Below are positions 865-57,726 of a stretch of 57,911 nucleotides of DNA, piece after piece. Made by a program: the position numbers and the translations under genes. The stretch's first letter is position 1. Each line of letters begins with the position of its first letter. Source of the stretch: a virus; IMG/VR virus record IMGVR_UViG_3300009551_000018, positions 1-57,911 of that record, one strand, 5' to 3'. The notes under the pieces are model-generated. The model did not search any database. It saw only the letters and a program-made list of their open reading frames with translations, and was not told the origin of the DNA.

Positions 865-2157
865 TTAAGAACCAGGATTAACATAAGTACCATGTACAAA
901 TGCATCATTGTAGTAGACCGGAAGGGCCACTCGCCCCTCCACCCGGACCGTGATCTGGTTATTCTTCACGTTATCGCCATCCTGTTCAAAGAACTCAATA
1001 ACCGGATCCTCGCGGAATAACAATTGTGCACCCATTTCCCAATCACCTGTAAGGAATACGTTGGTAGCCATTGCGGTAGTTTTGTAGGATTTAACCCCTG
1101 CAACTTCCAAGCCCATGCCTGAGCCACCGTAGCTTACTAAACCACCTGGTAACGAATAGATACCAGCAGTCGAGCCACTTGATTGTGATAATAAAGCGTT
1201 GTTGTATCCGGCAGGATCAAGCACGATACCTGTAGCAGTGTGATTGAGTTGCTCCAATAGGGTAATTGAATCAACCAACATTTCTACCGATTTTGTTTTC
1301 CCAGGTACGTATGTGATCGAGTTTGCCGAATTGAATAAACCTAACAACTGACCATTTGCACCTGTACCGTTCAGTATTTGTGCGTCCTCTGCATCCAAAT
1401 ATTTCTGTAACAGACGGAAAGCTAAAGAGCTTTTCAAAGCCGGGATGTCATCCAATGATTTACGGGAAATACGAATCCATCCAGCAATAAATTCAGCTTC
1501 CGCGCTTACTTCCTTATAGCGGATGTCAAACTGTGGCTTTGCACCGCTATTCTCCTGCCATGTGCCGATAGAGCCATCAAAACCAATTTCCTTTAAGAAG
1601 TTGTACAGTGATGTAACCATACGTCCGGTTGACATAATATCACGCATGTGAACCCTGCGAGAAGGGAACGGAACGATACCGGGTGCCATCTGAACGTTAG
1701 CCGCAGTCAGGTTTGAAATTGAGCTTAATCCCATATCACCAACGGCTTTCAGTTCGTAACGCAACTTATTTTTGTCAGATTTACCGGCAAAGAACTTTTT
1801 CAGTTCATCAACGTTTTCATCGATCGCTGTATCGAAAGCGTCTTTGAAAGTTACGCCTTTATCGGCTTCTGCTTTTTGCGTGGTGCGCAAACGGTTGATT
1901 TCCAAAAGAGCCTCATCATGGGACTTCATTTTTTCTTCCCACGCTTTCTTTTCCTCAAGAACTGCCTCAAGTTTTTCTTTAAACTCCACGTTAGTTCCTA
2001 TAATGGTTGCTATTTCACCTTTCAAAAGGTTTTTAGCTTCATCAAGGCTTGCTCCTGTTTCAGTTGAAACACGATCATAAACCTCGTTGAATTTACCTTT
2101 CACCTCTTTTACTTCGGGCGAATCAGTATCCTCTATTTTGAATATTACTTTACTCAT
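865..2157 (-). CDS. Major capsid protein, HK97 fold
   Basis: 430 residues. Residues 1-115 are charged and helical, like the delta/scaffold domain of HK97-type capsids. The HK97-fold body follows from about residue 135 to 425, with typical features such as the LNGTGANGQLLGL segment near 265 and the C-terminal RVEGRVALPVYYNDAFVHG strand. It directly follows the prohead protease with a 5-bp gap. The protease would cut after the scaffold domain. A terminator closes the unit right after it. This is the self-assembling shell subunit. Confidence 0.93.
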   Translation of the reverse strand: MSKVIFKIEDTDSPEVKEVKGKFNEVYDRVSTETGASLDEAKNLLKGEIATIIGTNVEFKEKLEAVLEEKKAWEEKMKSHDEALLEINRLRTTQKAEADKGVTFKDAFDTAIDENVDELKKFFAGKSDKNKLRYELKAVGDMGLSSISNLTAANVQMAPGIVPFPSRRVHMRDIMSTGRMVTSLYNFLKEIGFDGSIGTWQENSGAKPQFDIRYKEVSAEAEFIAGWIRISRKSLDDIPALKSSLAFRLLQKYLDAEDAQILNGTGANGQLLGLFNSANSITYVPGKTKSVEMLVDSITLLEQLNHTATGIVLDPAGYNNALLSQSSGSTAGIYSLPGGLVSYGGSGMGLEVAGVKSYKTTAMATNVFLTGDWEMGAQLLFREDPVIEFFEQDGDNVKNNQITVRVEGRVALPVYYNDAFVHGTYVNPGS

Positions 2158-6096: not shown

Positions 6097-7524
6097 TTAC
6101 CAAGTCCATGAGATAACATAGTCCAATTCAAAGTAGTATCTCATCATTAGTAAATCGCGCCAATCCGGTGAATGTCCAATATTCTCTTTTACTTTTTCTT
6201 TTGGCAATATCCTGAGCTTTCTTTCGTCATCTACTTTATAGGTTTTCATCCATGAAAGTTCAAGTGCTATTTCTTCTTTTTCATTGCCTGACAAATCGCA
6301 TTCTATAAAAATTTCATTTTTATTTATTTTAGATGCTAACCCGTAAATGCATTGCGTTTGAAGATTTGCGTAATTTTCAGCCTTAATTTTACTTAGTGGA
6401 TTTTCAGCACTTTCAATTGGTAATAGTGCGGTTGAATTATTTAAAAATCCCAATATTTCACAATTATCGACTACTCCACCACCTACACCGTCTTCATCAG
6501 CTACACATTGCATATTCGGTATGCCATATTTAACCCTGAAAGCTAAAATACAATTCTGTATTTCAACGGTAGATGAAATTGCATATTCTTGATGTTCTAC
6601 CAAAACCCATCCATTCCATACGGCTATTCTTGCTTTGTCAGATCCAAATCGTGCAATATCGGCAGTTATATATTTTTTACCTGTTTTTTGAACGTGGTTA
6701 TTTTTGAAAATTGATATTATACTATCATATTCGCATAATGCTGTTGGATCATCGTCGTATTCCCAATTTCCATCTCGTAATCTGGCTTTTGTAATTGGGT
6801 CTGTAATAGCGTTTAGATTGGCCTCATAGCCACTTTCTTTAAATGGGTTGTCTACTATCTTTGCTTGAATAAAAACACGCCCCACCTCTAATTCATTGTT
6901 TACAGATGGTTTATAGTAGTACGTATAAATCCAATTCTTTTTTGGATTGGCTGTAAGGAATATTTTACCGCGTCCTAAATTGTATTTGTCATTTAAGTTA
7001 CGACCGACACGGGTTTTCAAAGTATCGAATGCCCCGAAATGCACTTCTCCTGCTTCTTCTATCCAACCGCCTGTATATTCAACTGATCCGTAACGTTCAT
7101 ATAGCGGGTCAGATGGCAGAAACTTTAAATCTAAAAGTGAAATTCTACTACCATTGAAAAACTGAATGTAATTCATTTGACCATTGAAAGAATAACTTGT
7201 AATGCCAAATTCTTTGCAAACTTTAAAGAATGTCAAAAGTGTGCTATCCTTTAGCCTTTTTAGTTCTTCACGCCCTATAAACCATGTTGTGCCTGGACAC
7301 GAAAGGCACATAAACAAAAGCCAACAGCAACCTAAAAAGCTTTTACCACCACCCGCAGCACCACCGTATAACAAATCAAATGTTTCGTCATCGGTCAATT
7401 TTTTTAATGCCGCTTCCTGTTTTAAATGTTTGCCATTTTGAGAAACAGTTATGAAATCAAAAAAGCCTCTTTTGAAGGCTTCAGTGTAAATTTGCTCTTT
7501 GTTTAAAATGATATTAGTTTCCAA
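6097..7524 (-). CDS. Terminase large subunit
   Basis: 475 residues. The ATPase half has a Walker A YGGAAGGGKS (53-62), a Walker B-type GGWIEEA (152-158) and a coupling motif TANP (192-195). The nuclease half has ITADIARFGSD (286-296) and ADEDGVGGGVVD (342-353), which supply the acidic metal ligands of the RNase H-like fold. It packages DNA through the portal. Its start overlaps the end of the small-subunit candidate by 11 bases. Confidence 0.94.
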   Translation of the reverse strand: METNIILNKEQIYTEAFKRGFFDFITVSQNGKHLKQEAALKKLTDDETFDLLYGGAAGGGKSFLGCCWLLFMCLSCPGTTWFIGREELKRLKDSTLLTFFKVCKEFGITSYSFNGQMNYIQFFNGSRISLLDLKFLPSDPLYERYGSVEYTGGWIEEAGEVHFGAFDTLKTRVGRNLNDKYNLGRGKIFLTANPKKNWIYTYYYKPSVNNELEVGRVFIQAKIVDNPFKESGYEANLNAITDPITKARLRDGNWEYDDDPTALCEYDSIISIFKNNHVQKTGKKYITADIARFGSDKARIAVWNGWVLVEHQEYAISSTVEIQNCILAFRVKYGIPNMQCVADEDGVGGGVVDNCEILGFLNNSTALLPIESAENPLSKIKAENYANLQTQCIYGLASKINKNEIFIECDLSGNEKEEIALELSWMKTYKVDDERKLRILPKEKVKENIGHSPDWRDLLMMRYYFELDYVISWTW

Positions 7525-17618: not shown

Positions 17619-19829
17619 TTAAAATAATAAATGTTGAGTTTTGCCGATTTCAGCATTCAAACAATTTTTAACTGCTAAATCAAAGTATGATGTTTTTAGT
17701 TCACCACCTATGGCTTTACGTTCCATTTTTATAGCCTGAAAAAGTTCTGACCCGATGCCGGCAAACGGCGTATAAATGGTATCGCCTTTATTTGTCCATA
17801 AATGAATTGATCTTTCTATAGTATCTAAGCTCAAAGGGCAAATGTGCTTTTCGTCTTTCTCATCTCTTGCACCTTTTAAGTTTAAAGTATTGCCAAAATC
17901 AATATCCATCCAAACTGGAGATGCTATTTTTTGCCATAAATCAACCGGTAAATATCCGGGTTTATCAGGATGTGTGTCTTGGTGTGTAACGGGGTTATTG
18001 TGATCGCCTGGTTTACGAAATACCATCAAATATTCAGGTATTCCGACACGCGACATTGCAGCATCTTTTTTAATCTGTTTATGAAGTAACCCTAATGCTT
18101 TTGTACGTGTCATTTCGGTAACAGGGTTTTTCCATATTGTAACCCGTGAATGATAGATAAATCCAACTTCAGTAAATGCCTGTAATATCATACCTGAAAA
18201 GTCACGTAACCCGATATATCCTTCTTTGCCTTTTTGAATAGGCAAATCCATGCAATGAACCGCAACATTACGACCAGACCAAAGTATCCTGTATAAGTCT
18301 TCAACAATGAATTTAAAGGCAAATAAAAACTCATTGTAGTCTTTTGAGTTACCCATATCTTCAAGTTCACTTGAATAAGTATATAATTCAGCAAATGGAG
18401 GTGAAAATATGCTAAAACCGATACTTTCATCGGGTACATTCTTAATTGTTTTTACGCTGTCACCCAAATACAATTCAAAATTATTACCTGTTACAGTTTT
18501 AACTTCGCGTTGGTCAATTTCTTTAACTTCGCTTTTTATGTTTTTCATTACCGCTTTAGCCATTGCTTGTTGCATGTGTTCAAATTGTTTTTGTTTATTA
18601 TAAATTGATTGTATAACGTTGGTCATTGTATCTGTTGTAATCAGATAAATGTTTACCGGATGAGCCTGACCGAAGCGATAAGAACGCCTAATACCTTGAT
18701 ATAACCCCTCAAAGCTAAAGTCCAACGAAGCGAAGATCTGATTATGGCAATTTTGGTAATTCATCCCCATTGCAGCTATTTTTACTTTTGTTAGCAGTAT
18801 GCGAAAGTCTCCATTTGCAAAACCCAATAGCTTATTTTTTTTATATTCATTGCTGTCAGACCCTTTTACTTCTACAATTCCAGGTATCAGTTTACGTAAA
18901 TACTCACCTTCTTCATTTTGCTTTATCCAAATGATAAAAGTTTCATTAGAGTTATTTACAATATCTGCGACCTGATCTAACCTTTCTATTTTTGTAAGCC
19001 TTAATTCAGTATTGAAATTTGTAGCTGACACGGCAACGTCATTAAACAATTGTCCGTTTTCTCTACTTTCGGTTTTTATTTTGTGTTCAACCAAATTAAG
19101 TGACGGCAAATTATACCCATCCATTTTAAAACCTATGTCAGCAGGATTTGAAAGCATTATTGCCCATTCCGATACCCATTCATAAAAACGTTCCTTTGCA
19201 TGCCCTTTTAAACGCCATTTAGCCGTATCTCCACCGTCATGAACAAAGTACATGGCAAGCATTTCATTGTAGCTCATAACGTTTAAAAACTCGCTATGAT
19301 TACCCAACTCCATAGGGTCGTTTGGGCTTGGCGTTGCAGTACAGGCTAATTTATAAGGAGAATTTGCGAAGTTTTCAATTATCAGTTTTCGGGTTGCTCC
19401 ATCAAAGTTTTTAATGATTGAGCTTTCATCCAAAACGACACCTTCAAACCGTGAACAATCTATATTTTCAAGTTGCTCATAATTGGTTATATGAAGATTG
19501 CATAACTCAATTAAATGTGGATCATACTCAATCAGGTTATAACCAAATCTTTCAGCCTCTTTTATGGTTTGACCCACAACGGCCAACGGTGCTAAAAGCA
19601 AAACAGAACCACCAGTATATTTTGCTATTTGATAAGCCCATTCTAATTGTTGAAAAGTCTTGCCAAGGCCACAATCTTGAAATAAGGCGAAACGACCTTT
19701 CCTCAATGCAGTTTGAACGCAAAATTTTTGAAATGGAAATAATAATGGGTTTAAATCTTCTATGGAAATTTCAAAACCGGATTCGACAAAAGATTTTTTC
19801 TTCTGTAATAGAAATTCGTCGTAATTCAT
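17619..19829 (-). CDS. SNF2-type helicase fused to DNA methyltransferase, 736 aa
   Basis: Residues 30-440 carry superfamily-2 motifs: Walker A CGLGKT (53-58), LDES (133-136), TATP (164-167) and the late arginine motif QGIRRSYRFGQ. Residues about 450-730 form an amino-methyltransferase of the DNA N4/N6 type with catalytic SPPF and the SAM-binding motif TPFAGIGSE near the C-terminus, in beta-class order. Such fusions occur in phages and defence islands. It could methylate phage DNA while moving along it, for protection from restriction. No specificity unit is adjacent. Confidence 0.85.
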   Translation of the reverse strand: MNYDEFLLQKKKSFVESGFEISIEDLNPLLFPFQKFCVQTALRKGRFALFQDCGLGKTFQQLEWAYQIAKYTGGSVLLLAPLAVVGQTIKEAERFGYNLIEYDPHLIELCNLHITNYEQLENIDCSRFEGVVLDESSIIKNFDGATRKLIIENFANSPYKLACTATPSPNDPMELGNHSEFLNVMSYNEMLAMYFVHDGGDTAKWRLKGHAKERFYEWVSEWAIMLSNPADIGFKMDGYNLPSLNLVEHKIKTESRENGQLFNDVAVSATNFNTELRLTKIERLDQVADIVNNSNETFIIWIKQNEEGEYLRKLIPGIVEVKGSDSNEYKKNKLLGFANGDFRILLTKVKIAAMGMNYQNCHNQIFASLDFSFEGLYQGIRRSYRFGQAHPVNIYLITTDTMTNVIQSIYNKQKQFEHMQQAMAKAVMKNIKSEVKEIDQREVKTVTGNNFELYLGDSVKTIKNVPDESIGFSIFSPPFAELYTYSSELEDMGNSKDYNEFLFAFKFIVEDLYRILWSGRNVAVHCMDLPIQKGKEGYIGLRDFSGMILQAFTEVGFIYHSRVTIWKNPVTEMTRTKALGLLHKQIKKDAAMSRVGIPEYLMVFRKPGDHNNPVTHQDTHPDKPGYLPVDLWQKIASPVWMDIDFGNTLNLKGARDEKDEKHICPLSLDTIERSIHLWTNKGDTIYTPFAGIGSELFQAIKMERKAIGGELKTSYFDLAVKNCLNAEIGKTQHLLF

Positions 19830-35649: not shown

Positions 35650-37719
35650 TTAATATACATGGATAATTACGGCAATTTTGCCAACGCCATACACACCATT
35701 TGTAACCGCTAAAGTACCGTTAACATATTGAAGGCTATACTTAGTGCTTGACGCCCCGAATATGGATATTGGATAATTACCTTTAGGGCTTGAGGTTGTC
35801 GCGGTTGTGGTTAAAGTTGGCAACCCTGTTATAGACGCATCACCATTTACCAAACCGCCATAAGTAAATTTAAGCGTTGGATTTGCCTCTCCCGGTTTCT
35901 TACTCAGGTTTGTTGCCGTTAAAATCAAAGGTGCTTTATTGATCGTTAACGTAATTGTGGCGTGGCTACTGCCTGCCGTGTTTGTGCATGTTACCGTATA
36001 GTTTGTGGCTGATTGCACTACGCTTGGAGTACCTGAAATTATACCTGATGACGTGTTTAAAGATAACCCTGATGGCAAAGAAGGTGAAACTGAATAAGTT
36101 CCAGCACCACCGCTATTTGCAGCTATCATATTCGTCAAAACATAGCCATACGTTGCAACCTGGCTCGATGGTGAATACCCTATTGATGGGGCTACAACTG
36201 CCGGTGGGTTAACGGTTATCACCAAAGGGAAGACATAATTTCCTGCTGAGTTATGCGCTGTGATGTTGTACGTATTACTAACCACGACTACAGGAACGCC
36301 ACTTATTACGCCTGTGCTTGTATTTAAAGTTAAACCGCTTGGTAAAGTCCCTGAATAACTTGTAACCGCTCCACCAGTGTTATTAGGGCTTAATGGGATG
36401 ATCGGATTTGATACCGTATACGTTTGTGGTGATGGATAAGTTGTATGCGGTGGAACTATTGGGACGGCATTAACCGTAAAAGTAATATTTGTAGTGCTGT
36501 TACCAGATGTGTTTGTTGCCAAAACCGAATTTGTGTGCGTTGCATAGGTCGCGGTCGCTGTGCCTGAAATTAGCCCCGTAGTGGCATTTAAAGTTATTCC
36601 CGATGGTAGAGAGCCAGTAAGCACAAAAGATGACGCTACGCCGCCTGTATTGATTACATTGGCTGAAATAGATTGTCCTACTGTTATTGTGTAAGTATTT
36701 GGTGAGTAACTAATATTAGGCGGTGATAAAGTTGAACATGATGTGTTAAATAATGGATCGGGCAAAATTGAAGCATTTAAAGTATTATCTCCAATATTTG
36801 TCGTCCAATCTGTAGGTTGAAAAGCTGTTGCAGGATCAAACCAATAATTAAAAACGCTACCGCTTGTTTGAATACAATAAACCCTGTTATGACCTATTGT
36901 TATGTTTGAACTTGCTACAAATGGAGTGGTGTAATTACCGAATGCTATACCTACATTACTATATGCTGTACGTGCCAAATAGCCAACGTTGTAAGACATT
37001 TCAATATCGTGCCCACCTTGAACCTGACATAATACAGAACCAACATTAACAAATGTATTACTATCGCACCTCTGGTATGATCCACCTTTATCGCCCCCTA
37101 CCATACCAACATATCCAGTTCCAGGTGGATTAGTAGAACCGTTTACAGCCTGATTTCTGCAACATCGTATAGGGCTTCCCGAAGTGCCATTGCACTTATA
37201 AATAGAATATTGATCTCCAATTCCTGAACTTGAAACATCGTGATATGATTTATTATCTAAGATTTGAATTGAAGTACCATTACACCCATTTAATTGAATT
37301 GACGAACCACCGCCATCTGTACTTGTTGCCGTGACATTTGGATCTATGATATTGTAAAAATAATTATACCAAAGGTGTATATTGTTTGTCGCGCCTACTG
37401 CATAAATGCCTCTCCAACCGGCCTGAAAAAAGCAAGTATCTATTGTGATATTATAACATCCTGATCCTATCTGAATTAATCCGTTTAGGTTAGTGCTGTT
37501 TTTAATAACGCATTTGGTAACATGAACATCGTGTACACCGGCAGGAATATTGATGCCCACGGTTGCTGCACCACCCATATCAATTACATAACCTGAATAA
37601 TTTGTGTTGCTTACTGCTGTAATGGGTGAATGGGAAACAAAACTACCGCATCCTGGAACTGCCTGCCCGAATGTTACAAATGGTAGTATCATCAAAAGAA
37701 ACAGTAACAGTCTTTTCAT
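35650..37719 (-). CDS. Secreted-type tail spike: beta-helix, He_PIG repeats, MBG, 689 aa
   Basis: The start MKRLLLFLLMILPF is preferred; it begins a signal peptide ending at ...VTFGQ. Residues about 30-330 form a right-handed beta-helix with Asn/Cys turns (IQIGSGCYNITIDTC). Three He_PIG-type Ig repeats follow (about 340-590; each with YSPxxYTxTVGxxIS... and LPSGITLNATTGLISGT), then an MBG-like domain (about 590-680; LILTATNLSKKPGEANPTLKFTYGGL). The domain set is that of host secreted adhesins. It probably acts as a virion spike, but the signal peptide is unusual for that. Confidence 0.8.
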   Translation of the reverse strand: MKRLLLFLLMILPFVTFGQAVPGCGSFVSHSPITAVSNTNYSGYVIDMGGAATVGINIPAGVHDVHVTKCVIKNSTNLNGLIQIGSGCYNITIDTCFFQAGWRGIYAVGATNNIHLWYNYFYNIIDPNVTATSTDGGGSSIQLNGCNGTSIQILDNKSYHDVSSSGIGDQYSIYKCNGTSGSPIRCCRNQAVNGSTNPPGTGYVGMVGGDKGGSYQRCDSNTFVNVGSVLCQVQGGHDIEMSYNVGYLARTAYSNVGIAFGNYTTPFVASSNITIGHNRVYCIQTSGSVFNYWFDPATAFQPTDWTTNIGDNTLNASILPDPLFNTSCSTLSPPNISYSPNTYTITVGQSISANVINTGGVASSFVLTGSLPSGITLNATTGLISGTATATYATHTNSVLATNTSGNSTTNITFTVNAVPIVPPHTTYPSPQTYTVSNPIIPLSPNNTGGAVTSYSGTLPSGLTLNTSTGVISGVPVVVVSNTYNITAHNSAGNYVFPLVITVNPPAVVAPSIGYSPSSQVATYGYVLTNMIAANSGGAGTYSVSPSLPSGLSLNTSSGIISGTPSVVQSATNYTVTCTNTAGSSHATITLTINKAPLILTATNLSKKPGEANPTLKFTYGGLVNGDASITGLPTLTTTATTSSPKGNYPISIFGASSTKYSLQYVNGTLAVTNGVYGVGKIAVIIHVY

Positions 37720-37729
37720 GAAACTAAAG

Positions 37730-38020
37730 TTACTTTTTATATTTGATAAAAACATATAGCCTCATCTTTGCTATAAAAGTTGGTAGATTGATTAGAAATA
37801 GCACCCAAGCCAATGAAATTAATTGAAGGTATCCGAATAGGGTTGCTATAAAATAAATCGCTGTAGAGGCGTATAAATAGGTTTTAGAGATAAATAACTC
37901 AAGCCATAAAGTCCTGAGTTTCCCGTAATCAGTTGATTGTTTAAATTCATAGGCAATAAGCCCAGATATGGAAGCCATTCCGATTAACATCATGATGACA
38001 AGGAAATCGCTAAAAGTCAT
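37730..38020 (-). CDS. Membrane protein, three spans, 96 aa
   Basis: Hydrophobic segments at about 4-21, 49-66 and 70-88 with a basic end (KMRLYVFIKYKK). Coupled to the gene above by 4 bases. Part of a run of five small membrane genes whose task is unknown. Confidence 0.6.
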   Translation of the reverse strand: MTFSDFLVIMMLIGMASISGLIAYEFKQSTDYGKLRTLWLELFISKTYLYASTAIYFIATLFGYLQLISLAWVLFLINLPTFIAKMRLYVFIKYKK

Positions 38021-48240: not shown

Positions 48241-48652
48241 TTTTTTTTGGAGTAGATTTAGCCTTTTCTTCTTTGGGTTTTTCGGCTTCTTTTTTGGCGT
48301 TCTTTTCGGCTTGTTCGGTAATGAATTGGCTCATACCTGTAGCATCTTTATAGGCTTCCCAAATTGGTGACCATTCGTTCATATCTACATTGCCAACCTG
48401 TTCTGATACCCATTCTAAAGTATAGCCGTGTTTTAGATTGAACTTTGAGTACTGATACCCAATAAGTCCGCAATAAACTATCACGGACATACCCAATAAA
48501 AAGTTTTGTTCTATAATGGAGTTAAGGGATTGTGTTGCTTCGACAATATCATCCTTTTTTTCTGTCCATTTCATTAACTCTACCTGAGCATAATTATTGA
48601 AATGAAAAAAGTATTCTTCGCCTTTTATTTCTAAACGAATTACGGTATGCAT
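48236..48652 (-). CDS. Tail assembly chaperone (gpG-like), 138 aa
   Basis: Opens MHTVIRLEIKGEEYFFHFNN. The frame ends TPKKK at a run of nine A just before TAA. Its position, between tube and tape measure, and the shift-prone end identify the G-type chaperone. The C-terminus is Lys/Glu-rich. Its start overlaps the tube stop by one base (TAATG). Confidence 0.8.
   Translation of the reverse strand: MHTVIRLEIKGEEYFFHFNNYAQVELMKWTEKKDDIVEATQSLNSIIEQNFLLGMSVIVYCGLIGYQYSKFNLKHGYTLEWVSEQVGNVDMNEWSPIWEAYKDATGMSQFITEQAEKNAKKEAEKPKEEKAKSTPKKK
48240..48248 (-). promoter_or_regulatory. Probable -1 frameshift slippery site (nine A)
   Basis: On the minus strand CC-AAAAAAAAA-GTAA allows slippage. A -1 shift reads AAA GTA ACA... 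and enters the downstream open frame. This gives the G-T fusion typical of siphovirus tails. Confidence 0.7.
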
Positions 48653-49098
48653 TAAGAAGGATTAACTTGTGTAATTACGCCTGATGAATCGAATGTATAA
48701 GAATAGGTTACAATCTCATCAAATTTACCGGTTTGTTTGATGTTGGTTAGATAACCATCACACCCGTAGAAATTCGGGCCGATCATAACAGAACAAAAAA
48801 CCTTGTCTTTTGTAATGGCGAGGTTCATCAATGTTGCTCCCGATATTTCACCAGGTGCACCACCACTTTGGCTCTTATCCAATACTGAAAATCCTGACCC
48901 TGTAATTTTCATTGAGGTAGATAATGCAATCATTGAACCGAATAAGTTACCGCTTGTATCTACCGTACATTTTGACGAATTGTCGAAAGTTTTGATAACC
49001 ATTTCAACATCGCATGTTTGATCGCAACCGATAGCAACACCATCGATATAAATAAACATATCCTTGCCGGGAAAATATACTGGATTATTGTCTGCCAT
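48652..49098 (-). CDS. Major tail tube protein, 148 aa
   Basis: Beta-rich, opening YFPGKDMFIYIDGVAIGC, with SKCTVDTSGNLFGSMIALST and the C-terminal KFDEIVTYSYTFDSSG. It has the usual place and size of a lambda/TP901-1-type tube subunit, just before the chaperones and tape measure. Confidence 0.8.
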   Translation of the reverse strand: MADNNPVYFPGKDMFIYIDGVAIGCDQTCDVEMVIKTFDNSSKCTVDTSGNLFGSMIALSTSMKITGSGFSVLDKSQSGGAPGEISGATLMNLAITKDKVFCSVMIGPNFYGCDGYLTNIKQTGKFDEIVTYSYTFDSSGVITQVNPS

Positions 49099-51095: not shown

Positions 51096-51499
51096 GATCT
51101 TTTTATCCCTAAGATAAAGACAAATACCTGATCTTTATAAACTGTAGCTTCTGTATTTTGAAAAGATGATTTTGTCCCGGGGTAATAAGGTGATATTGCG
51201 TGTACGGTGTATATGTCCCCCGGATTGTTCAAGTCCTCGAAAAGATAGCCTTTTTGTGGTGTGAACATGGAACGATAACGAATCACTAAGGTCTTGTCAC
51301 CGTTTAACACCGTTGCACCGGCCTCTATAGCCCATTGGTGATACTGTTTTATAGGTTGCAAGTCACCCCAAGTAACATCGGTAGGTGCTGTTTGAGAGCA
51401 AACTAAAGGTGTCTCTGTCAATACTGCACCACCTGAACTATTTAAAGCTGATACCTCTTTAAAGAAACGTATACGGTGATTTAGTTTGCCTGGATTCAT
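51092..51499 (-). CDS. Head-tail adaptor (head closure), 135 aa
   Basis: GKLNHRIRFFKEVSALNSSGG opening, QWAIEAGATVLNGDKTLVI and RYRSMFTPQKGYLFED fit the Phage_H_T_join / SPP1 gp16-type closure protein that seals the portal ring. Order connector-adaptor-gp10 is canonical. Confidence 0.85.
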   Translation of the reverse strand: MNPGKLNHRIRFFKEVSALNSSGGAVLTETPLVCSQTAPTDVTWGDLQPIKQYHQWAIEAGATVLNGDKTLVIRYRSMFTPQKGYLFEDLNNPGDIYTVHAISPYYPGTKSSFQNTEATVYKDQVFVFILGIKRS

Positions 51500-52056
51500 A
51501 CTATAGTCGCAAATCTTCTGTAATTGGTTAACAGCATAGTTATGTTGCTTGGTAAATCAATCTTAGTCATATCCCGGTTTTCATAAGTGAAGCTTACAAT
51601 TTGTTTCACTGCAACTATCAGATCGTTTGGTATTAAAGACACATCTGTGTAACCAACATCAAGCGTTAAAATAAATGTTACGCATTGATCGGCATGAATG
51701 GTGTAATAGTAATTGGTAAAGAAAACATACCATGCGTCCCAATACCAAAAACCATTAGCCCATCCTAAAATTATGCGCAAGGTTTCGTATTTAAATTTTA
51801 CTGTGTATGAATTTGTATCTGAACTATCCTGATTTACAACTGAAGCCCCATTTAACGGATATTGAAAGGCTATATAGTGATATTTAGCAGTTTGGTAAAC
51901 TACTTCATTGCGTTGGTAAAGCCTGTAATTAGTTTCTTTTTCGACAAGTCCAACGGCAGCGGTTATAAGCCCTTCGATAAGATCGTCGTCGTCATCAAAA
52001 TCCACGCGAAGGAACGCTTTTGCATCTGCTAAACTTAATACGTCTGTTGGTGACAT
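51496..52056 (-). CDS. Head-tail connector (gp6/gp15-like), 186 aa
   Basis: LSLADAKAFLRVDFDDDDDLIEG is the helical start of gp6-type connectors, and LIPNDLIVAVKQIVSFTYENR near the C-terminus is typical. It binds the portal in the head. In most HK97-like phages this gene directly follows the capsid gene; here a glycan cassette separates them. Confidence 0.85.
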   Translation of the reverse strand: MSPTDVLSLADAKAFLRVDFDDDDDLIEGLITAAVGLVEKETNYRLYQRNEVVYQTAKYHYIAFQYPLNGASVVNQDSSDTNSYTVKFKYETLRIILGWANGFWYWDAWYVFFTNYYYTIHADQCVTFILTLDVGYTDVSLIPNDLIVAVKQIVSFTYENRDMTKIDLPSNITMLLTNYRRFATIV

Positions 52057-52169
52057 GCCTTTAAAATTGATTGTAAATATCTATGAATGTCAATACGTGG
52101 CAACTTAGCCATCAATTTCAAATGTTCTGTATTTATTGGAACTAATTTTATTTTATCTTGCTTATCCAT
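52035..52169 (-). CDS. Bridging small protein, 44 aa
   Basis: MDKQDKIKLVPINTEHLKL then MAKLPRIDIHRYLQSILKA. It overlaps the glycosyltransferase end and the connector start by 22 bases each, so it joins the glycan cassette to the head-tail genes. Its coding potential is fair but the overlap limits certainty. Confidence 0.4.
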   Translation of the reverse strand: MDKQDKIKLVPINTEHLKLMAKLPRIDIHRYLQSILKACHQQTY

Positions 52170-53104
52170 TGATCGAACCTGTCTAACTCCAGTTTACTTT
52201 TTTCTTTAACAACCCTCACGCGTTCTAAACTTGCCTCACTTTGCCGTTGCCATGCTTGACTGTTGTTAATCAAATATACAATTACCTCACAATATTTTTC
52301 AATATTATTTCTATCGACAAAAAGACCGGCTTCGGAAAGGTTCTCTTTTATTCCCGGACACGGGTGCGCGATAACAGGAATACCATATTGCATTGCTTCT
52401 ATAGCACATTGGCTGAAACTTTCAAACTCACTTGGTACTAATAAAACCCTTGTAGACTTGTATACAGCCTCTATATCGCAACCATTTGGCAAATAGGTAA
52501 CATTGGGCAAGTGCGCTTCGATCTGCTCTCCATAGCCACCAAAAACGCCTAAAAATTGAAATTGAGGCAACCGGCTTGCTATCTCTGCGAATATATGTCC
52601 CCCTTTGTTGTGATTGCAGTTGATTAATGTAATGTATTGGCCTTCGCTTTTCTTTTTTACATCAGGTAATAACGGGTGTAAAACAGTCGAATTAAAATGC
52701 CCAAAATCTTTTGCTAAGTCGTCACGAAGTTGATAGGAATTATAAACTACGTGGCATTCATGTTGCTGTGCGTGTCTTACTGCGTAAAGTTTTGAGTTAT
52801 TATGAGCTATGAAAATGAGAGGCTTTTTATGTTGGATCATTTTGTTATATCCGTATGCTGTGCCTATCAATTGAGTTATAATCACATCTGCCCATTTAAA
52901 ATGCTCATTGTTTCCAATGAACATTTCTACGTTTTCGCCTTGACTAAAACATTCTATTCCGTTATGGATGTACGGTTCTTTTGTACCACAAATAATACGG
53001 ATGTTGTGTGCTTTTTTGAGATGATTTAAAAGTCTCGTTAAATACAGTTCACCCCCTGCCAATGGTTGATGAAAGTAATTATAAGGACAGCAAATTATAT
53101 TCAA
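52148..53104 (-). CDS. Glycosyltransferase, GT4/GT-B type, 318 aa
   Basis: The C-terminal half has the GT4 signature PSEFESFSQCAIEAMQYGIPVIAH (E-x7-E type nucleotide-sugar site). The N-terminal half opens with GGELYLTRLLNHLKK and holds ICGTKEPYIHNGIE. It would transfer a sugar from a nucleotide donor. It is the last gene of the glycan cassette. Confidence 0.85.
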   Translation of the reverse strand: MNIICCPYNYFHQPLAGGELYLTRLLNHLKKAHNIRIICGTKEPYIHNGIECFSQGENVEMFIGNNEHFKWADVIITQLIGTAYGYNKMIQHKKPLIFIAHNNSKLYAVRHAQQHECHVVYNSYQLRDDLAKDFGHFNSTVLHPLLPDVKKKSEGQYITLINCNHNKGGHIFAEIASRLPQFQFLGVFGGYGEQIEAHLPNVTYLPNGCDIEAVYKSTRVLLVPSEFESFSQCAIEAMQYGIPVIAHPCPGIKENLSEAGLFVDRNNIEKYCEVIVYLINNSQAWQRQSEASLERVRVVKEKSKLELDRFDQWISKIK

Positions 53105-53445
53105 TCTAAACCCCTTTCAAATTCTAATAAATCATTTTGCATTTTAATATTTATAGATTTATCATATATTTTGCAAAGTTGATATCCTACCCATTTATTT
53201 GGCATGTATTCTTTTAATCCACCGTGAAAGCAGTCCCTATATTCCACAAATGAAGAATAAGGTTGATTTGCAGTCCACAATTCATATTTACCAAATGTGG
53301 CATGAAATTCAGTTATATTAGTAAATATACAACCTTCATCTATTAGAGATTGTAATTCATTACTCCATTTATCAGAAACCTGTTTTTGTGGCCTATTACC
53401 AAACCAAAACCACCAAATTTTTAATTTTAAAATTAGCTTTTTCAT
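53101..53445 (-). CDS. Hypothetical cassette protein, 114 aa
   Basis: The start MKKLILKLKIWWFWFG is preferred (overlaps the previous stop, ATGA). A basic, aromatic N-terminus suggests membrane association. The remainder (FTNITEFHATFGKYELWTA) is unrecognised. Its place between two glycosyltransferase genes points to glycan work. Confidence 0.6.
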   Translation of the reverse strand: MKKLILKLKIWWFWFGNRPQKQVSDKWSNELQSLIDEGCIFTNITEFHATFGKYELWTANQPYSSFVEYRDCFHGGLKEYMPNKWVGYQLCKIYDKSINIKMQNDLLEFERGLD

Positions 53446-55328
53446 TGATGTAAAATATATGGTTTTGTATGTAAAAATTGAGTATGACTGAAACCACTTT
53501 CGCCCCATAACCCCTTTCTTGAATACAAATGAATAGGCATTTTTAAATCCAATCTTTCAAGCACATACAACAGCCCTGTGTTAGCTGTGTGTATCTCTGT
53601 TGCACCTTCAATAACTCTCACCCAATCAAAAATTGTGAATCCTGGTTTTATCGACATTTCAACTACCGGCAATTTGCTTTCTATTTTCGGTTCGATCTGA
53701 AATTGCGCCAAATGCCCGAAATAACGATTTACAAAAATGTACTTTTCAGGTAGGTCTTTTGCGAGTTCGTTTTCAGCCTGTAAATCTCTATCCCATGTTA
53801 AAGACCTGAACATTTGCCAATCGTGTCCGTACATTTGATATTTAGCTGTCATACAGTGATCTAAACCACGTCCCATATTTTCACTTGCGAAACGATACGG
53901 CAACCATTGGCCTAATGGAGTATTTATCCTGTGATGAGATTCATAAGGTAAGTTATACTGATTCTTATCTACAAAATTTATGTCAGGAAAGTGTTTTTTT
54001 AACGAAAGGTATTCAGGGTTTACAGGCCACAAAATAGAATTTCCTTCGGCTATTAAGGCTCTTACCAAAGGTACTAACCAAATGATATCTCCTAAACTCG
54101 CGAACTGGCCGACAATATATTTAAAGTTTGTTGGCTCTATCGGTGCTGTACGCGGATTGCTGCCATGCCTGCCAAATTGTTTATCCAAAAACTTTTTTGG
54201 TTGCATATAACCCTCGAAACTAAAGTTTTCAGCGTGGTAAACAGGTGCAAATTTGATTTGATATTTATCTTCAAGATACTTTCTGTATGTTCGGCAAATG
54301 TGGTGATCTTCTGGGTGTAATATTTTAATGTTTTGATCTGTGCCCAAAATTTCCATTAGTCTTTTTGTCCTGAGCGAAAAGCCACCGTTTCCAACTGCCA
54401 TGCCATCTGTGTAATGCCAGGGTGCACCTATGTAATCATATTCTAACCATTGATTGTTCCATGACTCCCAATTATGCACAAATCCGTCATACTGAAATAT
54501 AAGAACGTAGTCCGTTTTGATGTGCTTATACGCCTCTTTTATCATGAAGTTTGAATACTTCTCTTTTGACCTTATATCGGGATGTAAACAAACTATATCA
54601 CCAAACTTTATATGTGAGGTACATTTAGCTAATGGTTCTTTGATTCGCTCAGCGTTACTATCAACACAAAGCAATGTTACATTTGGCAAGTGTATCGGTT
54701 TGAAACTTTCAGCAACATCAGGGTTTTCCCAATGGTTTAGCGAACTATCAAACCCGATATGTTGTATTACTGATTCTTTGAGGCAATAAGCACCACCGGC
54801 AGCGATACAGGCCATGTGATCAAAATTCCCTATCTCAGTTTGAAGTGCTGGTTTTAAATAGTTCTTATATGCGTATTTATCAGTTATGAAGTTAATCCCC
54901 CCTACCGACTTTTTAAGATATACACCGCCAACTTCTTTTATTATCTCATGCCGTTGCGAGCCGTCCCGGTTTGTGTTTACGCTGTGAAAGCCTGTCAACA
55001 ATGTTTTAGGCTTGTACGCTTCAATCAACCGATCAACAAAATCTGTCCTTACTAAAGCGTCACTATCCAAGTTAATTACCACGTCATTGTTTTTAAACAG
55101 TTTTTCATAGCCTAAAAGTAACGTGCCTTTTATACCTAAATTAACATGGTTGCAATCAACTGGTAAACCACATTCAGAAAGTATTTTAATTGTTTGTGCA
55201 TCGGTTGAGCAATCGTCTATGACTAATATCTGATTGATTTTAGATAGGTCTGCACGTTTGAGATATTCAAAACATTGACGTAGGTAACTTGGCCTATTAT
55301 GAGTCGGAATTAGTAAAGCAATTTTCAT
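53442..55328 (-). CDS. Three-domain glycosyltransferase fusion, 628 aa
   Basis: Residues 1-200: GT2 (GT-A) domain with LVIDDCSTD near 36 and NLDSDAL (DxD type) near 86. Residues about 205-390: DUF5672-like domain (LCVDSNAERIKEPLAKC; LIFQYDGFVHNWESW; GAPWHYTDGMAVGNGG), associated with glycosyltransferase clusters. Residues about 400-628: a GT9-like domain (YIVGQFASLGDIIWLVPLVR), as in heptosyltransferases. Three sugar-related domains in one phage protein suggests assembly of a short glycan by one enzyme. Confidence 0.8.
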   Translation of the reverse strand: MKIALLIPTHNRPSYLRQCFEYLKRADLSKINQILVIDDCSTDAQTIKILSECGLPVDCNHVNLGIKGTLLLGYEKLFKNNDVVINLDSDALVRTDFVDRLIEAYKPKTLLTGFHSVNTNRDGSQRHEIIKEVGGVYLKKSVGGINFITDKYAYKNYLKPALQTEIGNFDHMACIAAGGAYCLKESVIQHIGFDSSLNHWENPDVAESFKPIHLPNVTLLCVDSNAERIKEPLAKCTSHIKFGDIVCLHPDIRSKEKYSNFMIKEAYKHIKTDYVLIFQYDGFVHNWESWNNQWLEYDYIGAPWHYTDGMAVGNGGFSLRTKRLMEILGTDQNIKILHPEDHHICRTYRKYLEDKYQIKFAPVYHAENFSFEGYMQPKKFLDKQFGRHGSNPRTAPIEPTNFKYIVGQFASLGDIIWLVPLVRALIAEGNSILWPVNPEYLSLKKHFPDINFVDKNQYNLPYESHHRINTPLGQWLPYRFASENMGRGLDHCMTAKYQMYGHDWQMFRSLTWDRDLQAENELAKDLPEKYIFVNRYFGHLAQFQIEPKIESKLPVVEMSIKPGFTIFDWVRVIEGATEIHTANTGLLYVLERLDLKMPIHLYSRKGLWGESGFSHTQFLHTKPYILHQ

Positions 55329-55594
55329 TTTATAAATTTTAATAATGGTGATTCGCCATAAGATGTTTTTGGCTTAAAATATAGCATGTGGTAATGTGTT
55401 TGTTTTTCACCGGGTCTATCGTTTGACAATTCGACTGTTTCGCATCCAAACCAAAATAACATTCTATTACAAATAAGCATCTTTACTTTTAAATACTCAA
55501 TTCCCTGTTCTTCTTTAGAGTAATCTAAAACTACAGTATCATCGGGCTGTAAAATATTAATATCAGTCAGTTTACTAAGCCAGTATTGCATCAC
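55325..55594 (-). CDS. Hypothetical protein, 89 aa
   Basis: MMQYWLSKLTDINILQPDD, then MLICNRMLFWFGCETVEL. Beta-rich and unrecognised; coupled on both sides by 4 bases in the glycan cassette. Confidence 0.6.
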   Translation of the reverse strand: MMQYWLSKLTDINILQPDDTVVLDYSKEEQGIEYLKVKMLICNRMLFWFGCETVELSNDRPGEKQTHYHMLYFKPKTSYGESPLLKFIK

Positions 55595-56226
55595 TTAAAA
55601 TAATTATGTAATCTTCTTAAACTGTCAATATCTCTGTAACGGTCTTTATGATCGTTAGATGTTTTAGCCCTGAAATGGTAGCCTTCAAAGGTTTTAAACC
55701 CTTCTACCTCGGCATCTGTTCGCGACCGATCATCAATCATTGGCACTCTGTCTTTCAATATTTGGCCTATCAAAACATCTTCTGCTCCGTGTCTATTTGG
55801 TGTTAATTCATCTTTTAAAATATCCAATACATCAGGAGAAAAGAATATACCGGCACCGCTTATGTAAGTCCCGTTTTGCCATCCTGCATAACACATCGTT
55901 TTAGGCAACATTTCAGCCACTTTAAGCAATCTTTCTTTTACAATGTAGCTACAACTGTTCGTGCGGAAAATAATGTCGTATGCGTGATAATCAATGCAAT
56001 CTAAGGCTAATTTAAACTTCCAATGCATGTTTTCGTAATCGTCGCTTGTGTTTACTTGACAAGTAACACTATGTTTTATCTGATACATTCGGTTTTCTTC
56101 GCCACCATGATAGTATATTGTATCAATGTTTGGATTATAAACTGAATCCCATCCATCCAATTGACAACGTGCAAATGATCCGAACGGTTCAGATGTATAG
56201 GTTAAAACAAGTATTAGTATTCTCAT
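55591..56226 (-). CDS. Glycosyltransferase-like protein (GT-A), 211 aa
   Basis: Opens MRILILVLTYTSEPFGS. A DIIFRTNSCSYI strand occupies the DxD region, and GAGIFFSPDVLDIL and HGAEDVLIGQILKD follow the Fringe/galactosyltransferase-like plan with the acidic ED. The DxD itself is not intact (RTNS), so the metal ligand set is uncertain. Confidence 0.65.
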   Translation of the reverse strand: MRILILVLTYTSEPFGSFARCQLDGWDSVYNPNIDTIYYHGGEENRMYQIKHSVTCQVNTSDDYENMHWKFKLALDCIDYHAYDIIFRTNSCSYIVKERLLKVAEMLPKTMCYAGWQNGTYISGAGIFFSPDVLDILKDELTPNRHGAEDVLIGQILKDRVPMIDDRSRTDAEVEGFKTFEGYHFRAKTSNDHKDRYRDIDSLRRLHNYFK

Positions 56227-56942
56227 TTGCCTAACATTTTACGTATACCTTCTCTGAAACTTAAACAATTGGAGATGCCTGGATTTGCAAGCGAATAAAT
56301 CATATCTGTATTAACACTATCAGTATATAGCGTTACGATTCTTGTTTTTAATTCTTTTGAAATAATATCAGGTATCTGCCATGCCGATAAACCTCTGCCG
56401 GTTCCTACTTCAATTATTTTTTCATTGCTATTTAAAGACTCAATAATAACCCTTACAACATCATCAATGTAGATAAAATCTCTTATTTGAGTACCGCCTG
56501 CGATAACAACATTTTCACCTGTCCTTGCACAATCAAACGACCGTTTAACTAATCCCTTGTTATTCCCATTCCCATACACATTAAAAAACCGTAATCCTGT
56601 AGCGTTTTTGCCTTTTGCTAACCATTCAATATACCTTTTCGTATACGCGTAAACATTAGTTAACTCACTTGCACTTGTACTCGAAGCATAGACAATACGT
56701 GTCGGTATTTCCATGATCTTTTTTGCGTACACGATGTTACTTTCAAATAATTCAGGGATAAAATCAGCCGAGGTTGTTGTGACTGCAGCGAGGTGTATGA
56801 TATAATCAGGTATATAATCAGGGACTTCATTATGACCACCGCAATGCACGTTATAATCTGTTAGTTTTGGCAATAGGTGTTTACCAATAAAGCCGGTTGA
56901 ACCGGTAAGAAAGAGAGTAGGTTTTATTTTGGCTTCGTGCAT
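56223..56942 (-). CDS. NAD-dependent epimerase/dehydratase (SDR), 239 aa
   Basis: Rossmann start TGSTGFIG (13-20) binds NAD(P). VYASSTSA (84-91) and Tyr98-x3-Lys102 (YAYTK) provide the catalytic Ser, Tyr and Lys of extended SDRs. It probably converts a nucleotide-sugar (epimerase, dehydratase or reductase) to feed the cassette's transferases. At 239 aa it is shorter than most UDP-sugar epimerases (about 310-340). Confidence 0.85.
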   Translation of the reverse strand: MHEAKIKPTLFLTGSTGFIGKHLLPKLTDYNVHCGGHNEVPDYIPDYIIHLAAVTTTSADFIPELFESNIVYAKKIMEIPTRIVYASSTSASELTNVYAYTKRYIEWLAKGKNATGLRFFNVYGNGNNKGLVKRSFDCARTGENVVIAGGTQIRDFIYIDDVVRVIIESLNSNEKIIEVGTGRGLSAWQIPDIISKELKTRIVTLYTDSVNTDMIYSLANPGISNCLSFREGIRKMLGK

Positions 56943-57043
56943 ATCGGCTTTTTGTTCTTATTCCAATAAAATTTAATGTTGTGTGGAATGTCTTTTATAA
57001 GAGTTGATTTTGGTAATGTTTTAGATTGATGTGCGTTTGTCAT
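56924..57043 (-). CDS. Bridging small protein, 39 aa
   Basis: MTNAHQSKTLPKSTLIKDI, then PHNIKFYWNKNKKP. It overlaps the methyltransferase end by 23 bases and the epimerase start by 19. Basic; small genes of this kind at cassette joints may be real or chance. Confidence 0.4.
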   Translation of the reverse strand: MTNAHQSKTLPKSTLIKDIPHNIKFYWNKNKKPICTKPK

Positions 57044-57599
57044 TTGTATTAATATTTGGATAGTTATTATCATAAATGCCACCTTTAATATATGATGGTA
57101 TTTCCATTTTCTCGCATATTACTACAAAGCTATTATTGTGATCGACTCCTGAAACATAAACCTTGTGGCCTAATCGGTTCAAGTACGTTTCTATTTCGCT
57201 GCCTTCAAATTCATGAATATGTTTCCTGTTACTCCAAACGTTCCAATATTCTTGTGACTTGTGAGGTAAATAAAGAAACAACATGCCACCTACTTTAATT
57301 TTACTTAGCCAGTAGTCCAACACATTGCAGTAGTTCTCATTTACATGCTCTAAACAATGGCTCGAATGAATGTAATCAAACTGGCCTTTTGGCAAATGCA
57401 TTGCGTGGTATGTTGGATCAATAGATGGCTCAATACCTATTGCACCTGGAAACATCCACTTCTCTTTATAGTAACCAATATCAAGTCCGACACCTGAAAG
57501 ATAAAACTTTGCCAAGTCACGAACCCATAAACTTGCTCCTCCTACACTTTGATGTTCAGGATATTTTTTATTATTAAATTCGATAAAATTTAAAGGCAT
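57021..57599 (-). CDS. SAM-dependent methyltransferase, 192 aa
   Basis: A class I fold: VGLDIGYYKE (SAM-binding motif I), GIEPSIDPTYHAMHL, then FDYIHSSHCLEHV (motif with SHCLEH) and KVGGMLFLYLPH. Sugar- or small-molecule methyltransferases of this type often sit in glycan clusters; it may methylate the glycan made by the neighbours. Confidence 0.8.
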   Translation of the reverse strand: MPLNFIEFNNKKYPEHQSVGGASLWVRDLAKFYLSGVGLDIGYYKEKWMFPGAIGIEPSIDPTYHAMHLPKGQFDYIHSSHCLEHVNENYCNVLDYWLSKIKVGGMLFLYLPHKSQEYWNVWSNRKHIHEFEGSEIETYLNRLGHKVYVSGVDHNNSFVVICEKMEIPSYIKGGIYDNNYPNINTNDKRTSI

Positions 57600-57600
57600 A

Positions 57601-57726
57601 TTAAAATTCTCCTGAATCTGAATTATAACCTTCTCTTTTATTATTATGTCTTGCTATAAAAAATATAGCTAAAAATATGGCTGAGAATGTACTTATCCAT
57701 ATTATTAGTTCTTTTGCTTCACTCAT
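57601..57726 (-). CDS. Single-pass membrane protein, 41 aa
   Basis: MSEAKELIIWISTFSAIFL, about 20 hydrophobic residues, then polar RHNNKREGYNSDSGEF. Stop is one base from the methyltransferase start. Role unknown. Confidence 0.55.
   Translation of the reverse strand: MSEAKELIIWISTFSAIFLAIFFIARHNNKREGYNSDSGEF

Follow-up and report, generated by a model that had tools for sequence, protein, structure and literature searches.

Why would a phage keep genes for building a glycan among the genes for its own virion? This question is raised by a 57,911-nucleotide stretch of viral DNA (positions 1 to 57,911 of IMG/VR virus record IMGVR_UViG_3300009551_000018, hereafter the window), in which an earlier note had seen a glycan-building cassette within the virion operon and had proposed that the phage decorates its own capsid or fibre with a short methylated glycan. 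Our comparison of the cassette and of virion proteins suggests, with a probability of about two in three, that late in infection the cassette enzymes build a short glycan with a methyl cap in the cytoplasm and that this glycan is put on the phage's own virion, most likely O-linked to the C-terminal serine (Ser) of the major tail protein (MTP) and of the major capsid protein (MCP). That the virion is glycosylated is the reading we prefer, because membrane spans are absent from the enzymes and no gene for DNA hypermodification was seen among the proteins scanned; it is supported by the conservation of the cassette at the capsid–connector junction, by a parallel in mycobacteriophages and by the correlation with terminal Ser on MCP and MTP. 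The proposal of the earlier note is thus the best-supported one, from sequence comparison and the mycobacteriophage parallel; of the two acceptors it named, our data favour the capsid, and they indicate the tail tube protein in place of the fibre.

A conserved cassette at the capsid–connector junction

The first and last 123 bp of the record are identical, and we read it as a complete, circular genome (57,788 bp, followed by the 123-bp repeat). On this circle the MCP gene lies just upstream on the minus strand, so that the cassette (52148-57599, minus strand) sits between the MCP gene and the gp6 connector, where the earlier note had placed it, and its open reading frames (ORFs) lie at the positions given there. 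The minus-strand order is terminase, portal, MuF-like protein, prohead protease, MCP, a few small ORFs, the cassette, gp6, a head completion protein next to gp6 (family match 1.4e-6, Pfam/PHROG) and tail genes, with the following features bearing on the question:

865-2157, minus strand: HK97-fold MCP (Phage_capsid 3e-22); proposed acceptor, C-terminus ...VNPGS
57021-57599, minus strand: methyltransferase (MT), class I S-adenosylmethionine type, 192 amino acids (aa) (Methyltransf_23 4.9e-9); conserved core
56223-56942, minus strand: short-chain dehydrogenase/reductase (SDR), NAD-dependent nucleotide-sugar epimerase/dehydratase, 239 aa (Epimerase 3.4e-21; GxxGxxG and YxxxK motifs); optional module
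55591-56226, minus strand: GTA, a GT-A fold glycosyltransferase (GT), GT31/fringe-like, 211 aa (predicted-structure match); optional module
55325-55594, minus strand: 89-aa protein, an ORF with 4-bp overlaps and no family match (Pfam/PHROG)
53442-55328, minus strand: three-domain GT fusion, 628 aa (GT2 GT-A domain, DUF5672 GT-A-like domain, C-terminal domain); conserved core
53101-53508, minus strand: 135-aa protein, overlapping the fusion gene by 67 bp and the GT4 gene by 4 bp; its start may lie further in
52148-53104, minus strand: GT4-type (GT-B) glycosyltransferase, 318 aa (Glyco_trans_1_4 1.5e-14); conserved core
51496-52056, minus strand: gp6-type head-tail connector (Phage_connect_1 1.5e-12); downstream boundary of the cassette
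48652-49098, minus strand: putative major tail (tube) protein, MTP, named by position and family-wide alignment, not by a direct family match; proposed acceptor, C-terminus ...VNPS

Overlaps of 4 bp, which the earlier note had described throughout, are present at the SDR/GTA, GTA/89-aa, 89-aa/fusion and 135-aa/GT4 junctions and absent from three others, namely MT/SDR (78-bp gap), fusion/135-aa (the 67-bp overlap) and GT4/gp6 (91-bp gap). Promoter- and terminator-like sites in a scan did not exceed chance level; strand and spacing suggest that the cassette is co-transcribed with the head and tail genes. The gene order resembles that of Cellulophaga phages, which suggests a Bacteroidota host; the metagenome identifiers hint, as no more than a guess, at soil as the habitat.

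Gene-context comparison in related phages, proposed as a check in the earlier note, showed that MT, the fusion and GT4 form a core which relatives retain between MCP and gp6; about twenty relatives have the conserved enzyme set at this place. Among 10 viral contigs with an MCP 61-100% identical to that of the window, those reaching past the MCP carry MT, and those reaching further carry the fusion GT and GT4 ahead of gp6. A fusion profile search added further phages whose MCP is only 26-29% identical and in which MT, fusion and GT4 still lie between MCP and gp6; the order repeats in at least 15 other contigs and is therefore not a matter of chance. More distant phages keep MT with GT2-DUF5672 and the third domain after the MCP, either fused (L033) or split (L036). 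Close relatives retain the cassette while terminase identity falls to ~28%, and MT is 54-83% identical across 8 relatives. Within the clade, SDR occurs only together with GTA (window/L004, L008, L012, L014 and L018). The full-length fusion was found only in viral contigs and not in bacterial genomes, which yielded the DUF5672 domain only.

A gp6 search returned cousins that have the same head-tail order but no cassette, with MCP adjoining gp6, mostly 65-107 bp apart; the cassette has thus been gained or lost at one junction. That the junction tolerates this absence, and also other inserts such as homing-type endonuclease genes, would suit a moron island hitch-hiking at a permissive site with no virion-specific role. 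We consider such hitch-hiking very improbable, because the core is ~40-80% identical, with invariant motifs, across strongly diverged phages, and because cassettes of this kind, built from different enzymes, turn up again at or close to the junction (L253, L129 and Courthouse). In L129 (L129:5978-7930), GT25-type and GT4-type genes lie between MCP and gp6, the MCP ends KGSA and the MTP ends NSNS.

Terminal serine as a candidate acceptor

The C-terminal Ser of MTP and MCP is a predicted acceptor newly put forward here. When the C-termini of virion proteins were compared, Ser was the last MTP residue in all cassette phages of the clade whose contig includes the MTP, at MTP identities down to 25%. 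This Ser is 1 of 10 invariant alignment columns and is encoded by mixed codons of the TCN and AGY types (TCT, TCA or AGC). The MCP C-terminus is NPGS in the window and nine relatives and FAS, NAS or YQS in diverged members. In contrast, the MTP of cassette-less cousins ends in Asn, Ala or Pro and their MCP in Ala, Val, Ile or Gly. No family-wide terminal-Ser rule was found for other virion proteins of the clade.

An MT profile search led to a second MCP family, in which L253 and L255 carry a differently built MT and GT cassette between MCP and gp6 (L253:1755-4542; L255:2285-4068). It encodes GT, MT, GT9-like and GT4-like proteins, and the GT, judged by eye, is similar to the C-terminal half of the phi18:2 enzyme. 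The MCPs of L253 and L255 end VYGDFGNVS and VYGDFGNAS, whereas cassette-less relatives share VYGDFGN and end mostly in Ala (VYGDFGNVA). Across the enlarged family, terminal Ser was present in 3/79 cassette-less contigs versus 2/2 cassette phages; terminal Ser is therefore not proof of a cassette, yet cassettes go with terminal Ser.

We also compared phages that had not been used in forming the idea. Terminal Ser was present in Che8 (MCP ...KTGS, MTP ...SDGS), in the Corndog relatives Firecracker and Dylan (...LVGS and ...KGDS, thus GS/DS for MCP/MTP), which carry an O-methyltransferase and GTs between portal and protease, in Babsiella and Sbash (AS/GS), in Yoshi (ES/ES) and on the Marvin MCP (GS), while Cellulophaga phi18:2 has terminal threonine (Thr) on both proteins (MCP ...VSGT, MTP ...TVGT). 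Muddy, TM4, Bxb1, 11b, Mesorhizobium P1, phi10:1 and KPP5665-2 showed no terminal Ser/Thr in the proteins checked, these control phages being judged from the head region only and not for GTs elsewhere. Myrna, which is reported to be glycosylated (PMC12363180), gave no clear fit (gp98 AGGS; gp99, annotated as major head protein, RKA; gp123 TTV). Searches of isolated phages with the window MTP and gp6 returned no matches. Counted by lineage, cassette versus none, the terminal residue was present on 10/14 versus 0/11 MCPs (Fisher p 3e-4) and on 12/12 versus 1/12 MTPs (p 5e-6), values that are indicative because the hand-grouped lineages of this modest sample are not fully independent and partial homology exists among the mycobacteriophage cassettes.

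Beyond these features of the sample, several observations weigh against the proposed acceptor or against a role confined to it. Three MCPs of the second family (L278, L282 and L290) and the MTP of Shpa end in Ser with no cassette seen. Conversely, the MCP lacks terminal Ser despite a cassette in L033 (ATGL) and L036 (DGAN), and Ser is penultimate in L020/L027; in Courthouse the MTP fits and the MCP ends GFGD; and L215, found after the Fisher test, has an MCP ending EQSV with an MT downstream, which counts against the MCP rule. The unit of MT, GT2-DUF5672 and third domain also lies after the terminase in podovirus-like L037-L040, that is, in other phage types, and together with L033 and L036 these fall outside the terminal-Ser rule or are not judgeable by it. 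MT homologues are found in cyanophage glycan clusters too, beside a homologue of the fusion third domain.

Some of these cases would also suit a virion glycosylated at another protein or site (a tail fibre, an Ig-domain protein or internal Ser/Thr), the terminal Ser then being structural. GT cassettes do occur with MCPs that lack terminal Ser (L033, L036, Courthouse and L215), and at 35650-37755 the window encodes a protein of 701 aa, possibly a fibre or adhesin, that combines three Ig-like stretches of He_PIG type and an MBG_2 domain. Yet conservation of the terminal Ser is seen for MTP and MCP and not family-wide for other virion proteins, and glycosylated phages with unrelated MCPs and MTPs have it on these proteins too, which makes another site unlikely.

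Enzymes without membrane spans for probable glycan assembly

The MT, SDR, GT2, DUF5672 and GT4 assignments exceed curated cut-offs. Pfam and PHROG thereby bear out the methyltransferase, SDR epimerase, GT2-DUF5672 and GT4 calls of the earlier note, and an AlphaFold model bears out its GT-A-like call. GTA has no Pfam match; its model (pLDDT 80.5) has a GT31-like fold, resembling the GT31-type beta-1,3-glycosyltransferases B3GalT5 (Foldseek E 2e-8, TMq 0.66) and B3GNT2 as well as the PBCV-1 capsid glycosyltransferase. The fusion matches Glycos_transf_2 (1.1e-10) and DUF5672 (PF18922; 8.7e-21, 74.7 bits versus a gathering cutoff of 24.4), and D88 and D90 of its DSD motif are invariant in the alignment. 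Its model (pLDDT 88.7, pTM 0.69) matches tandem GT-A enzymes in the PDB together with POMGNT1, ppGalNAcT and TarS, that is, protein- and teichoic-acid-directed GT-A enzymes. The C-terminal domain had been called GT9-like, a label that rested on a short motif and that profiles do not support: there was no Pfam match up to E=5 and no glycosyltransferase among the PDB profile matches. This third domain is nonetheless a real unit, because homologues occur in other phages as stand-alone genes adjoining MT. GT4 carries an EX7E motif at 228-236, both Glu being invariant in the alignment.

None of the cassette enzymes has a membrane span by hydropathy, and the same analysis revealed neither a flippase nor a membrane-anchored GtrB, features of GtrABC systems, among the cassette proteins. 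These findings bear on the proposal that the cassette alters host surface glycans (lipopolysaccharide (LPS) or capsule), for example in superinfection exclusion. This is a common role of phage GTs and was suggested by the phi18:1 authors for the GT of that phage (PMC11946311); methylated and heptose sugars occur in LPS, and one cyanophage glycan cluster combines an MT homologue with heptose genes. For the window we judge it unlikely, since flippase and membrane-anchored GT are missing, the match of the fusion N-terminal GT2 domain to GtrB-like phrog_841 is weak (4.1e-6) with the GtrB membrane part absent, all close relatives have the cassette within the head-tail operon, and terminal Ser correlates with it.

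Some phage GTs instead glycosylate phage DNA as an anti-restriction hypermodification, and the window does encode a helicase-DNA methylase protein outside the cassette (17619-19829; 736 aa, SNF2/helicase-C-type regions and an N6/N4 DNA methylase domain). However, among 20 non-cassette proteins scanned with Pfam, small ORFs not included, there was no base hydroxymethylase or thymidylate-synthase-like gene, only the N6/N4 DNA methylase; the cassette is tied to virion genes and includes a sugar-type MT and an SDR. We regard DNA glycosylation as extremely improbable.

A possible route to a methyl-capped glycan

For glycosylation of the phage's own virion, the acceptor site, sugar order, linkage, timing and benefit given here are those that we infer. 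A single GT domain would place the first sugar on the terminal Ser, the simplest candidate being the fusion's GT2 domain, and the glycan could then be extended by the DUF5672 domain, the fusion C-terminal domain and GT4. In some phages, the optional SDR and GT31-like enzyme may make and add a further sugar. MT probably O-methylates a sugar, which would serve as a cap. The coat might, for example, alter adsorption to surfaces or give protection. The MTP was considered as sole acceptor of the SDR/GTA-dependent sugar, as the MTP tree groups the window, L008 and L014 (support 0.985) against the portal tree; with n=3 this is a lead only. Heptose as a sugar, hinted at by an MT homologue beside heptose genes in cyanophage S-T4, was not retained, the GT9 assignment of the window domain having failed.

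Comparison with known systems

Virion glycosylation is experimentally proven in mycobacteriophages Che8 and Corndog/cluster O (Freeman et al. 2023, doi 10.1016/j.chom.2023.05.028; PMC4351075), and a later paper that cites Freeman 2023 reports C-terminal glycans on capsid and tail tube (PMC12619734). Capsid modification by an O-methyltransferase and GTs of the virion operon had already been suggested in the Corndog paper. As in the window, phages of the Che8/Corndog type encode a methyltransferase and several GTs, the cassette lies in the virion operon (portal to protease in cluster O; between MCP and connector in Courthouse), and in Che8 and cluster O both MCP and MTP end in Ser. Unlike the window, they have other MCP/MTP lineages and probably other hosts, and the SDR and three-domain fusion were not seen there; Firecracker gp33-36 and the window cassette gave no significant hmmsearch or blastp match.

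Cellulophaga phi18:1 and phi18:2 (Helsingorvirus) likewise carry an MT and a GT in the head operon (MuF to protease), with MCP and MTP ending in Thr, whereas the phi18:2 GT is of TOD1_MUCI70 type and its MT of Methyltransf_24 type, without homology to the window enzymes. The phi18:2 MT (L189:962-2634) is annotated as a DNA methylase and lies beside that GT. The published reading for these phages is LPS or DNA modification (PMC11946311); virion modification is an alternative for the phi18:2 pair. Chlorovirus PBCV-1 also builds a capsid glycan with virus-encoded GTs, one of which (2p6w) the GTA model matches, but virus and MCP differ and the likeness was tested at the fold level only. GtrABC serotype conversion shares phage-encoded GTs with the window, which differs in lacking a flippase or membrane GT and in the location of its GTs in the virion operon.

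Glycosylated virions have been demonstrated for a few actinobacterial phages; the present case would extend this to a distinct uncultured clade with unrelated enzymes and, via phi18:2, to a culturable Bacteroidota phage group. If true, soluble GT sets act on a one-residue C-terminal acceptor. Should the C-terminal Ser/Thr rule hold, glycosylated virions would be predictable from genomes, and one could test the general question of why particles are coated in phages that have no antibody-bearing host.

Additional observations

In cyanophage S-T4 (L201:5512-8641), an MT homologue (48% identical) adjoins a homologue of the fusion third domain and genes annotated for ADP-heptose synthesis. MT has C-terminal extensions in L009 (L009:12312-13283), L010 (L010:12737-13783) and L011 (L011:11897-12655); that of L011 (GDVFMPGCFDKSIKDGKF), without Pfam support, is similar to the beginning of prohead proteases. 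The large terminase subunit of the window (6097-7524) is seemingly swapped relative to L003, L005, L008 and L009 (~28% identity), whereas portals and capsids are 60-85% identical. At 114-190, between MCP and the cassette, a single tRNA-Met (CAT) is predicted that spans the point where the 123-bp terminal repeat ends. One further ORF lies just upstream of MT, its membership of the cassette being uncertain:

57601-57726, minus strand: 41-aa single-span membrane protein (hydropathy maximum 2.53 over 19 residues)

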